A stretch of 64,000 bases of DNA, taken from Phormidesmis priestleyi ULC007. Lineage in GTDB: Bacteria > Cyanobacteriota > Cyanobacteriia > Leptolyngbyales > Leptolyngbyaceae. The stretch spans positions 102,537 through 166,536 of the forward strand of contig NZ_MPPI01000005.1 in assembly GCF_001895925.1 (NCBI RefSeq). The letters run 5' to 3'. A program made the translations under genes and the position numbers. A model generated the notes under the pieces. It did not search any database, was not told where the DNA came from, and saw nothing but the letters and a program-made list of their open reading frames with translations. Of this stretch, positions 55,559 through 62,259 are shown in pieces (position 1 is the first letter of the stretch; each line of letters opens with the position of its first letter).

Positions 55559-56234
55559 CTAAGACTCTGATTTGCGAAATCGATAGCCCACGCCTCGGAT
55601 GCTTTCGATCCAGCCTGCGCCTCCGATCGAGTCAATCTTTTTGCGAATGCGCTGCACACACATCTACCACATTGGTATTGGTGTTGAAATCGTAGCCCCA
55701 AATATGTTCCAAGATTTGCGTTCGCGTGAAGACGCGTCCGGGCGATCGCATCAGATATTCCAACAAATTAAATTCGCGAGTGGTCAGTTCGATCATGTGT
55801 TGATCACAGGTGACTTCTCGTGTGATGCGATCGAGCTTAATCGGCCCGACCGACACTAGATTTTGACGATCGCCCGTGCTGCGACGCATGACAGCATGGA
55901 TGCGGGCAACCAGTTCTTCGACAAAAAACGGTTTGGCTAAATAATCATCGGCACCCAGGTTTAGACCTTCTAAGCGATCGTCGAGTTCATTGCGGGCGGT
56001 TAGCAAAATCACTGGCACATTTTGCCCTTTGCGGCGCAGACTTTTGAGAATAGATAGCCCATCTTTTCCCGGCACCATGATGTCTAGCACAATCACGTCA
56101 TACTCGTTTTCGGTCGCACAGACATAACCACGATCGCCGTTGTCGCAATAATCTACGACAAACCCCTGTTCCTTTAAGCCAGCACGAACGAAGTTAGCAA
56201 TTTTGGCTTCATCTTCGACAAATAAAATGTGCAT
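55559..56234 (-). pseudogene. OmpR/CusR-type response regulator, frameshifted in a CA repeat
   Basis: The frame from the ATG at 56232-56234 gives a receiver domain (ILFVEDEAK, phosphoacceptor Asp51 in IVLDIMVPGKDG, Lys in YLAKPF) and most of a winged-helix domain (LTTREFNLLEYLMR, TQILEHIWG). It stops at 55632 after VVDVCAAHSQKD. Another frame read from the same point gives QRIRKKIDSIGG, then GVGYRFRKSES and a stop at 55559-55561, the normal family ending. Loss of one CA unit at 55655-55662 (minus strand TG) explains the shift exactly. The truncated protein would lack the DNA-binding wing. Confidence 0.85.
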
Positions 56235-56642: not shown

Positions 56643-57236
56643 ATGATCACGACCCGACGACTGCTGACCTTAATGGCACTGCCTGTTCTAATTGGCTCAT
56701 TTGGATCTGCGGCTTTGACTGCAACCGCTCAATCTTCAAACCGACTTGCTCAAAATTCATCGCAGCCTGGTGAGCAGGGCAAGAGACATCGAGGTCCAGA
56801 TTTCGCCGCCGCCGCTCAAAAATTGGGCATTTCAGAAGCCAATTTGAAAGCAGCCTTGGGCGTTCCGGCAACGCCTCCAACTCCTGGCACACTGGGGCAA
56901 CGCCCAACCCGACCCGACTTTAAAGCGGCAGCAGCCAAGCTTGGCATTTCTGAGCAGCAATTGGTGAGCGCGTTGGGCGTTCCCTCTCGTCCGCCTGGTG
57001 CAAATTTTGCCACCGCCGCTCAAAAGTTGGGCGTGTCAGAAGCTAATTTGAAGGCAGCGTTAGGAGTTCCAGCAACGCCCCCGGCTCCGGGACAGCGCTC
57101 GCCTCGACCCGACTTTAAAGCAGCAGCGGCAAAACTCGGCGTGACTGAGCAGCAACTTGTGAGCGCGTTGGGAATGCCGCCCCATCGATCGCGAGATGGC
57201 AATCGTCCTGATGGTGCGCGTCCTCCTCAGCAATAG
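56643..57236 (+). CDS. Secreted protein with four helical AAAxKLGxSE repeats
   Basis: The 197-residue product has a signal peptide (MITTRRLLTLMALPVLIG, cleavage near ATAQ). Four repeats of about 27 residues follow, of the type FxAAAxKLGISExxLxxALGVP, separated by Pro-rich linkers. The repeats alternate in two kinds: A (AQKLGISEANLKAALGVP) and B (AAKLGISEQQLVSALGVP), in order A-B-A-B. A two-repeat block therefore duplicated. A basic Pro-rich tail ends it. Such short helical modules occur in secreted bacterial proteins; the function is unknown. It is 92 bp upstream of a PepSY-type gene. Confidence 0.85.
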   Translation: MITTRRLLTLMALPVLIGSFGSAALTATAQSSNRLAQNSSQPGEQGKRHRGPDFAAAAQKLGISEANLKAALGVPATPPTPGTLGQRPTRPDFKAAAAKLGISEQQLVSALGVPSRPPGANFATAAQKLGVSEANLKAALGVPATPPAPGQRSPRPDFKAAAAKLGVTEQQLVSALGMPPHRSRDGNRPDGARPPQQ

Positions 57237-57619: not shown

Positions 57620-58277
57620 GTGCAACGCAAACTGTTTAGCAATGGCACCGGGTTGAATGAGAAAATTCGCCTTCAGGGAGAGATTTACCGCGTCATCGGC
57701 GTTATGGAATCGAAAGGTAGTCATGGGTCCATGGATCGCGATGATACGATTTATATCCCATCGACTACGATGTCGTCTCGAATTGTGGGTAACAATGCTC
57801 TTAAAGGCGTTTCGGTCAATTCCATTCTGGTCAAAAGAGAGAATCAAGACGCACTCGTTGCTGCTCAGTTTCAGGTTACTAATCTATTGCGGCTGCGGCA
57901 CAATATTTCTAACCCCAACAATGATGATTTTCGGGTCACAAACCAGGCTGATTTGATCAGCACTTTCTCAAATGTGATTGGCGTTTTGACGATTTTCGGA
58001 TTTGTGTTTCAACAATTTAATTTGCTTCCTCGTGCAACTGCCCTCGAAAATGTGATGTTGCCGATGGTCTATGCCAATGTTTCAAAATCGGTTCGTCGAG
58101 AACGAGTAACTCAGGCATTAGTGCGAGTGGGCTTAAGCGATCGCTTGCACAATCGCCCCAATCAATTATCTGGCGGACAGCAGCAGCGAGTAGCAAGGGA
58201 TTACGATCGTGCTCGTCACTCACAAACCTGACATTGCGGCACAAACAAAACGTATTATTTGGACTTTCCTCGATTAG
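57620..58277 (+). pseudogene. Chimeric remnant of a MacB-type ABC transporter (permease fragment fused to ATPase fragments)
   Basis: The frame from GTG 57620 first encodes part of a MacB-like periplasmic domain ([25 protein letters not shown]). At about 57997 it switches in frame into an ATPase from its Q-loop ([11 protein letters not shown]) to the signature ([11 protein letters not shown]). At about 58196 it leaves frame; the other frame then gives [18 protein letters not shown], the H-loop region, ending at 58275-58277. Walker A, Walker B, the membrane spans and N-terminal permease part are missing. At least two deletions collapsed a permease-ATPase gene pair. It is not functional as a transporter. 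Confidence 0.85.
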
Positions 58278-58403
58278 CCCGTACTTCCGTGCAGGGCGGA
58301 ACAGCATTGAAGCAGAGGGATTTTTTATGCTTTTCAAACACCCTCTGTTGCCGCTTTAGCCAACTGCTTGATAGGATCGGCAGCATAGTTGGTGGAGAAA
58401 GTC

Positions 58404-58472
58404 ATGACGATTCAGAATCGCGATCGCGCCTCAGCGTTTTCCTCAGCCCTGGGAGTGCAGACCGATGACTGA
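58404..58472 (+). CDS. Possible 22-residue upstream ORF overlapping the kinase start
   Basis: An ATG at 58404 with GGAG just upstream opens MTIQNRDRASAFSSALGVQT and stops at 58470-58472, overlapping the first codons of the hybrid kinase gene (58465). It could be a translational-coupling leader or the tail of a lost gene. Confidence 0.35.
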   Translation: MTIQNRDRASAFSSALGVQTDD

Positions 58473-60198
58473 CTTTTGGAGCCAACTTTTTAGTCTGAAT
58501 TCGTTTGTGCCTCACGGACACTGCTACCTATGGCAAACCAACCTGGTGAGCCTGCACGTCCTCTCCGACGCACTCATCGCCCTGGCTTACTACTCGATTC
58601 CGATCACCCTGTTCTACCTGGTGCGGAAGCGGCAGGATCTGCCCTTCGAGTGGGTCTTTCTCTTGTTTGCTGCCTTCATTGTCGCCTGTGGCACCACCCA
58701 CGTGCTAGAGATCTGGACGCTCTGGTATCCGACTTACTGGTTATCAGGACTGGTCAAAGCGTTCACAGCCCTAGTTTCAGTCGTCACTGCCACCCAGCTA
58801 TTCCCCCTAATGCCAAAGGTTTTGGCTCTGCCCAGCCCAGCCCAACTTGAACACGCCAACCTGGACCTTCAGTCTCAGGTGACAAAGCGGCTCCGCATTG
58901 AGGAAGAACTGAAGCGCTATCAAACCCAGCTTGAGTCTTTGGTTGCAGAACGCACGCACGAACTAACGCAAGCAAACCAAACGCTGCAACAGGAAATCGC
59001 CGAACGCAAGCGGGTAGAAGCGGAACGGAAGCGGCTACTGGCACGAGAACAATCTGCCCGTGCTGAAGCCGAACAAGCTAATCGGATCAAGGATGAGTTT
59101 CTAGCGGTTTTGTCCCACGAACTCCGTACCCCTCTCAACCCGATTATCGGATGGTCGAAGCTGCTTCAGAGCGGCAAGCTCGATCGCGCAAAAAGTCGAG
59201 AAGCCCTAGAGACGATCGAGCGTAACGCCAAACTACAGGTACAACTGATTGATGACTTACTAGATGTGTCGCGAATTTTGAGCGGCAAGTTGAGTATCAG
59301 CGTCACCTCTGTTGACCTGAATGCAGTGATTGCAGCAGCAATGGAAACGCTTCGGTTAGCAGCCGAAGCCAAAGCGTTGCAGATTCAGACAACGATTCCT
59401 GCCAGTGCCAACATTGTGACGGGAGATGCCGTCCGCTTGCAGCAGGTAGTGTGGAATCTGCTATCAAACGCGATTAAGTTCACGCCCACCGGAGGGCAAA
59501 TCGAGGTAAGTCTGACCCAGGCAGACACCCAGGTGCAAATTCAGATCAAAGATACAGGCAAAGGAATTCTGGCTGATTTTTTGCCCTATGTGTTTGACCA
59601 CTTTCGACAGCAAGATGGAACAACCACCCGTAAATTTGGCGGCTTGGGGCTGGGGTTGGCGATCTCCCGTCAAATTGTGGAATTGCACGGCGGCAGAATT
59701 GGGGTCGAAAGCCCAGGTGAGAACCAGGGGGCTACCTTCACGGTTGAACTGCCCGTCTTGCACACCCCAAATGCTGTCGAAGCAGTTGCCGACATAGCTT
59801 TGACTGCATCAGACGATCGTCCCCTGGCAAATCTGCGGGTGTTAGTAGTGGATGACGAACCTGATTCACGCGAGTTTGTGGCGTTTGTGGTAGAACAAGC
59901 AGGAGCCGAAGTGATTGCGGTTGACTCTGCGATCGCGGCGCTGCAAACGCTTCAATCCATCCATCTCGACATTCTCTTAAGTGACATCGGCATGCCAGAA
60001 ATGGATGGTTATGCGCTCATGCGGCAGGTGCGTCAGTTACCTATTAATGGGCAAATTCCGGCAATTGCGCTCACGGCTTATGCGGGAGAAGTGGATCAGC
60101 AACAGGCGATCGCAGCGGGTTTCCAGACCCATTTGTCTAAGCCAGTTGAGCCAGCCGACATTGTTGCGACTGTTATCCGGGTATATGGGCGAAAGTAG
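58465..60198 (+). CDS. Ethylene-receptor-like hybrid histidine kinase
   Basis: The 577-residue protein has an N-terminal three-span domain matching the ethylene-binding domain of plant ETR1 and cyanobacterial SynEtr1. Asp35, Tyr42, Ile45, Pro46, Ile72, Cys75 and His79 (FIVACGTTHVL) sit at a constant offset of +10 from ETR1 Asp25, Tyr32, Ile35, Pro36, Ile62, Cys65 and His69. Cys and His are the copper ligands in ETR1. A coiled coil (130-210), HisKA (SHELRTP, His218), HATPase (NLLSNAIKF, DTGKGI, GGLGLGLAI) and a receiver with Asp507 (LLSDIGMPEMDG) follow. No PAS or GAF domain is visible. The kinase is complete. Confidence 0.9.
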   Translation: MTDFWSQLFSLNSFVPHGHCYLWQTNLVSLHVLSDALIALAYYSIPITLFYLVRKRQDLPFEWVFLLFAAFIVACGTTHVLEIWTLWYPTYWLSGLVKAFTALVSVVTATQLFPLMPKVLALPSPAQLEHANLDLQSQVTKRLRIEEELKRYQTQLESLVAERTHELTQANQTLQQEIAERKRVEAERKRLLAREQSARAEAEQANRIKDEFLAVLSHELRTPLNPIIGWSKLLQSGKLDRAKSREALETIERNAKLQVQLIDDLLDVSRILSGKLSISVTSVDLNAVIAAAMETLRLAAEAKALQIQTTIPASANIVTGDAVRLQQVVWNLLSNAIKFTPTGGQIEVSLTQADTQVQIQIKDTGKGILADFLPYVFDHFRQQDGTTTRKFGGLGLGLAISRQIVELHGGRIGVESPGENQGATFTVELPVLHTPNAVEAVADIALTASDDRPLANLRVLVVDDEPDSREFVAFVVEQAGAEVIAVDSAIAALQTLQSIHLDILLSDIGMPEMDGYALMRQVRQLPINGQIPAIALTAYAGEVDQQQAIAAGFQTHLSKPVEPADIVATVIRVYGRK

Positions 60199-60204
60199 AG
60201 CAGA

Positions 60205-60422
60205 TTCGACCCCAGCGAGTGTTTATTGATGCCATGACGCAGTTTTGCTATTTGTCGAGTGATGTCTTTCAATCGCTGACCGCTTATCCAGGCGAAGCCG
60301 ATGAACAAAGAGCAGCCTTGGTCGGGTTTCAAAAGCATCTAGCTAAACCACTCGATCCGACTGTTGGAATTGCAGCCGTCTCGGAGTTAGGCCAGTTGTA
60401 CAAGAACGGTCACTCAAGCTGA
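60205..60422 (+). pseudogene. Decayed second receiver-domain remnant
   Basis: A short frame after the kinase encodes SLTAYPGEADEQRAALVGF then QKHLAKPLDP, the C-terminal third of a receiver domain. It closely parallels the end of the kinase's own receiver (ALTAYAGEVDQQQAIAAGF). The phosphoacceptor part is missing. It is probably the tail of a lost tandem receiver or neighbouring regulator. Confidence 0.65.
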
Positions 60423-60494: not shown

Positions 60495-60588
60495 ACTTAC
60501 GCATTTTGACCAAAACCTCGGAGGTTTAAGCCACTCTGTCGGTCACGATGCTTGATTCTTGGTTAAAACCTCCGAGGTTTGCGTAAGT
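60495..60588. repeat. Palindromic repeat element with AAACCTCGGAGGTTT units
   Basis: A 94 bp element is bounded by ACTTACGCA and TGCGTAAGT (perfect inverted repeat). It contains two self-palindromic units, AAAACCTCGGAGGTTT (60512-60527) and AAAACCTCCGAGGTTT (60565-60580). It could fold on either strand as one long or two short hairpins. It lies directly after the 3' end of the CBS-protein gene. Confidence 0.75.
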
Positions 60589-60600
60589 CCTAACAAAGAA

Positions 60601-61863: not shown

Positions 61864-61902
61864 GTAGGGGTAGCGCCCCCGTGCCTACCCCTGGCGGAGG
61901 GC
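61864..61902. repeat. GTAGGGGTAGCGCCCCC repeat, copy 1
   Basis: A 39 bp unit beginning GTAGGGGTAGCGCCCCC and ending CGGAGGGC, with a near-identical copy at 63054. It runs into the 3' end of the recombinase-domain gene and supplies its last codons. Confidence 0.75.
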
Positions 61903-62259
61903 TTTGCCAGATTCCTCGATTTGCGGTTCTAAGCCTGAAATTCTGGGGGTGCGTCCATATAAGCGATCCAAGACTCGTTTGACTGAAATGCGCTGCCACT
62001 GCTGACCGCGCTTGGTGGTGTAACCATTCTGATTCAGCCAGTCTGCAACCTGCTGGAGAGATTTGCCAGATTTGTGATGTCGGCGAATCAGTTCGATCAC
62101 CTGCTGTTCATTGGGGTTTTCAATCAGTTCTCCATCGATCGATCGCTGTCCAAACGCAGGAGAACCATAGCCGATATATCCACCCTGAGCTGCTTTTGCT
62201 CTGCGTCCTTGCTCTAGCCGTTCCCAGATCTCGCGGTCTTGAAAGTTCTCGGCAGCCAT
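61885..62259 (-). CDS. Recombinase-domain fragment protein (no catalytic domain)
   Basis: The 124-residue product matches the 'recombinase' DNA-binding region of large serine recombinases (GGYIGYGSPAFGQRSIDGEL, VIELIRRHHKSGKSLQQVAD, WLNQNGYTTKRGQQWQRISV, KRVLDRLYG). The N-terminal catalytic resolvase domain with its serine is absent. Stand-alone proteins of this sort occur in cyanobacteria. The last codons (GKALRQG) lie within the dispersed repeat at 61864-61902, so the original C-terminus has been replaced. Confidence 0.75.
   Translation of the reverse strand: MAAENFQDREIWERLEQGRRAKAAQGGYIGYGSPAFGQRSIDGELIENPNEQQVIELIRRHHKSGKSLQQVADWLNQNGYTTKRGQQWQRISVKRVLDRLYGRTPRISGLEPQIEESGKALRQG

Follow-up and report, generated by a model that had tools for sequence, protein, structure and literature searches.

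The gene at positions 58465-60198 of the window, by which we mean the whole stretch of 64,000 nucleotides analysed here, very probably encodes a cyanobacterial ethylene-receptor-type hybrid histidine kinase, for which Cu(I) and ethylene binding and a phosphorelay are predicted from the protein sequence, from structure models and by analogy with characterised receptors. An earlier note on this DNA had given the position and length of the open reading frame exactly. The gene and its parts are laid out as follows.

58465..60198, + strand: etr1-like hybrid sensor histidine kinase, open reading frame from ATG to stop, 577 amino acids
58507..58533, + strand: N-terminal segment VPHGHCYLW preceding helix 1, residues 15-23, including H17 and C20
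58543..58830, + strand: ETR1_N ethylene-binding domain (PF25487), residues 27-122, Pfam E 1.7e-43
58687..58701, + strand: putative Cu(I) ligands C75 (codon 58687-58689) and H79 (codon 58699-58701) in helix 2, from the alignment with ETR1 C65/H69 and AzoEtr1 C75/H79 and the literature on AzoEtr1 and SynEtr1
58837..59088, + strand: continuous helical linker without PAS or GAF, about residues 125-208, from the gap between Pfam matches and the model
59089..59760, + strand: HisKA and HATPase_c with phospho-acceptor H218, residues 209-432, from Pfam and motifs
59839..60174, + strand: receiver domain with phospho-acceptor D507, residues 459-570, from Pfam and motifs

The earlier note had staked its reading on a match of the first 115 residues to an ethylene-binding-domain profile, and this match was obtained with E 1.7e-43 and a score of 147.3 bits, where the curated cut-off is 27, over positions 2-97 of the 97 in PF25487. 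Downstream of the sensor domain, Pfam places HisKA at residues 209-273, HATPase_c at 320-431 and Response_reg at 459-570. Motif inspection located the SHELRTPL motif with H218, the N, G1, F and G2 boxes of the kinase and the catalytic residues of the receiver (D507, T537 and K559), thus the protein has the HisKA histidine, the HATPase_c domain and the receiver aspartate of a hybrid histidine kinase, and both output modules are complete, as the note had described them. Also in line with it, Pfam gave no PAS or GAF match between sensor and kinase or elsewhere in the 577 residues. Between the CxxxH motif and the H box there are 143 residues, compared with 270 in PAS-bearing relatives, too few for the GAF/PAS light-sensing region of the SynEtr1 type. 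No second ETR1_N-type gene was found in the genome that the window comes from, and the receptor is thus present in a single copy.

The residues which we take to be essential in ETR1 (D25, Y32, I35, P36, I62, C65 and H69) are all matched in the receptor ten positions further on, as D35, Y42, I45, P46, I72, C75 and H79. In an ungapped comparison with the Arabidopsis ETR1 sequence, the +10 offset gave 35 identities, while the next best among 41 offsets gave 18; two offsets share this second place, and one of them, +7, corresponds to the register of helix 3. Because the gap between helices 2 and 3 brings helix 3 closer by three residues, K91 of ETR1 corresponds to K98 of the receptor. The constant offset of ten claimed previously therefore applies to helices 1 and 2 and gives way to +7 in helix 3. 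The residues D25, C65, H69 and K91 of ETR1 are confirmed in PMC11819568. Among 110 aligned relatives, C75, H79, Y42, P46, F68, I72 and W84 are identical in every protein, D35 is kept in 109 and K98 in 107, a conservation that is somewhat biased since part of the set was collected with patterns from the receptor's own domain. The same copper residues were found in the 29 loci retrieved by the Pfam profile instead of patterns. The conservation of copper-site residues, including the Cys and His, to which attention had been drawn from the single sequence, is thus borne out by the invariance of C75 and H79.

AlphaFold2 places helices at residues 25/28-55, 62-87 and 91-121, which are the three predicted membrane helices, with the Cys and His in the second; the three membrane helices are supported by hydropathy as well. 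One unbroken helix, residues 125-235, runs in the model from the linker into the kinase. The model of the sensor domain alone, a monomer without copper built on a 49-row alignment, has a mean pLDDT of 82. By helix register, C75 and H79 are at i and i+4 of helix 2, which on an ideal wheel puts an angle of 40 degrees between them. With a single turn of the helix separating them and a face in common, they would bind copper side by side, so the earlier wording that they face each other has to be changed: they are neighbours on one face of helix 2 and are not opposed. Neither a sequence search nor a fold search found a solved structure of an ETR1-type sensor domain, and the fold searches returned only generic helical matches, none with E below 0.001 and all with Z below 10, which are uninformative on relatedness.

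Ethylene sensing is the best inference for the receptor, from the 55% identity of its sensor domain to the tested one of AzoEtr1. Plasmid ABSP7_p1 of Azospirillum brasilense Sp7 encodes a 525-residue protein, equal in length to AzoEtr1 (PMC11819568). Residues 1-130 of AzoEtr1 bind ethylene saturably in yeast, and binding by SynEtr1 was abolished by mutation of the equivalent Cys (PMC11819568). The residues named for AzoEtr1, D35, C75, H79 and K98 (PMC11819568), carry the same numbers as in our receptor, and both proteins have a histidine kinase output; AzoEtr1 however has a PAS, another kinase and a separate downstream response regulator, whereas the present receptor lacks the PAS and has its receiver fused. 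The cyanobacterial kinases with an ethylene-binding domain, PAS, histidine kinase and receiver, such as that of Nostoc sp. 106C, are about 62% identical to it over the aligned length and share the sensor, the start of the linker, the kinase and the receiver, but carry in their linker one PAS of about 127 residues that the receptor does not have. SynEtr1 of Synechocystis and GeiEtr1 and GeiEtr2 of Geitlerinema have, by the papers' description, the cyanobacterial type of sensor domain with the seven residues, and by the same description contain GAF and/or PAS, both of which are missing here; unlike the receptor, SynEtr1 is also a photoreceptor and GeiEtr1 has no receiver. The plant ETR1 subfamily 1 shares the sensor fold, the copper ligands and the hybrid kinase with receiver, and differs by its GAF, two N-terminal cysteines and three extra residues between helices 2 and 3. 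Having no GAF and a single Cys20 before helix 1, the receptor is not of the plant kind.

Ethylene-receptor-type proteins are widespread and common in cyanobacteria. The domain is present in 43 of 58 related genomes, with up to seven per genome, and in 53 of the 194 genomes sampled across the phylum; a single scan of genome contigs yielded 519 domain matches. Full-length relatives of like architecture are 57-79% identical to the receptor, the closest being those at loci L032 (79%), L033 (77%) and L034 (68%), the last from Phormidesmis priestleyi BC1401, which belongs to the same genus as the window. In most cyanobacterial relatives one PAS of about 127 residues is inserted in the linker. The PAS-less form accounts for at least four changes on the tree of cyanobacterial relatives, which was built without the linker, and PAS-less proteins adjoin PAS-bearing sisters on it (e.g., L044/L055 and L078/L050), which indicates that the PAS was gained or lost repeatedly; the tree gives no direction for the change. 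The idea that the architecture is unusual was therefore rejected, and its recurrence in at least four places of the tree makes it an ordinary variant. Beyond cyanobacteria, the domain is encoded at 44-58% identity in plasmid records of Azospirillum, Novosphingobium, Rhizobium, Eleftheria, Blastomonas, Rhodovastum and Deinococcus, and all seven non-cyanobacterial proteins inspected retain the Cys and His of helix 2. The protein of the betaproteobacterium Eleftheria, composed of the ethylene-binding domain, histidine kinase and receiver, is equally compact.

By analogy with SynEtr1 and AzoEtr1, the receptor is expected to sense ethylene in a Cu(I)-dependent manner and to drive a phosphorelay to its own receiver. 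In the mechanism that we propose, the receptor dimer would hold Cu(I) via C75 and H79, this copper would bind ethylene or another small olefin, and the shift would be relayed by helix 3, with K98, to the coiled-coil linker. The change in the linker would then alter autophosphorylation of H218 and phosphotransfer to D507, from which the phosphate may be handed to an unlinked partner. Related receptors in Synechocystis and Azospirillum have effects on phototaxis, biofilm and surface properties. No shared neighbouring response regulator or HPt was seen among the loci L032, L033, L034, L075, L079, L083 and L044, in which the open reading frames were read, some of them by Pfam, and with no conserved partner gene adjoining, the output of the receptor is guesswork.

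We consider it unlikely that the domain binds Cu(I) in the service of another natural signal, i.e., copper, another alkene, carbon monoxide, or the membrane or redox state, with ethylene binding being incidental. Conservation is limited to the metal and pocket residues, the sequence does not specify the ligand, and the conserved PHGHCYLW before helix 1 could supply metal ligands missing from plants, but SynEtr1 and AzoEtr1, two bacterial relatives, both bind ethylene and show a response to it, and conservation covers the full pocket set beyond the Cys and His alone. The PHGHCYLW segment is common to the cyanobacterial relatives in two alignments, whose loci were partly picked by that motif, and PHGHCxLW occurs in 25 of the 29 loci retrieved by the profile, which starts downstream of the segment. 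HGxC is kept in six of seven non-cyanobacterial proteins, AzoEtr1 and other proteobacteria included, and the Deinococcus protein lacks it. That cyanobacterial receptors have one N-terminal cysteine has been noted, with the suggestion that it may replace the two plant cysteines in dimerisation (PMC6682694). The His of the segment, H17, is not discussed in the excerpts of the literature on these receptors, and a role for it in copper handling is speculation. With little confidence, we hypothesize that the bacterial H17-G-x-C20 is an extra copper or dimer site, replaced in plants by the two-cysteine N-terminus, and that the PAS-less form is a minimal, directly coupled ethylene switch.

The receptor gene is under purifying selection, which is strongest on the sensor domain. 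In comparisons with three relatives, the whole gene has a pN of 0.12-0.20 and a pS of 0.59-0.73, and the sensor domain has 0.03-0.09 and 0.61-0.74, respectively; the receiver is the fastest-evolving part. Several remnants surround the gene.

55632-56234: response regulator with truncated DNA-binding domain, by Pfam
57620-58231: MacB/ABC-transporter chimeric remnant, by Pfam
58397..58468, + strand: remnant of the upstream gene overlapping the etr start codon, by comparison with L032
60219..60422, + strand: C-terminal remnant of a further receiver domain, by tblastn
61885-62259: recombinase fragment, by Pfam

At L032 an intact 126-aa open reading frame, for which no Pfam family was found, terminates in NPGSADR across the etr ATG. 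The window has kept the start region and the PGSADR end of such a gene and lost its middle, and the short frame at 58397-58468 still overlaps the start codon of the receptor. The remnant at 60219-60422 is in tblastn 53% identical to the C-terminus of the receptor's own receiver and 49% to that of L032, and is too short for a Pfam match. In the open frame at 57620-58231, the end of a MacB periplasmic domain continues into the middle portion of an ABC-transporter ATPase, and the frame is apparently a deletion fusion from a decayed MacB-type transporter operon. Given these remnants and the intact receptor, the earlier description of an intact gene amid decaying ones is fair and largely right. That the receptor gene is itself being lost, its frame open but its expression or function gone as in its neighbours, is suggested by the remnants on both sides (the truncated upstream gene, the receiver remnant and the chimeric MacB/ABC remnant), and is nevertheless highly improbable in view of its complete motifs and of the strong purifying selection against three relatives, which is a whole-branch average blind to very recent loss.

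Two further elements were observed in the vicinity. The protein encoded at 56643-57236 looks secreted, contains four KLGISEANLKAALGVP-type repeats and matches many helix-turn-helix families only weakly. A repeat of about 100 bp lies at positions 60495-60597, and the genome contains some 30 more copies of it, mostly at more than 89% identity; its 21-nt inverted arms flank CCTCGGAGG, its ends are ACTTACGCA and TGCGTAAGT, and it resembles a miniature transposable element.

Receptors that carry all seven residues have already been published from cyanobacteria and other bacteria (PMC6682694, PMC11819568) and such receptors are common in cyanobacteria, thus the present protein changes no existing knowledge. 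Among bacterial ethylene receptors it is a very compact example, well supported by sequence, and because a helix alone lies between sensor and kinase, it would be useful as a small construct for work on structure and signalling.
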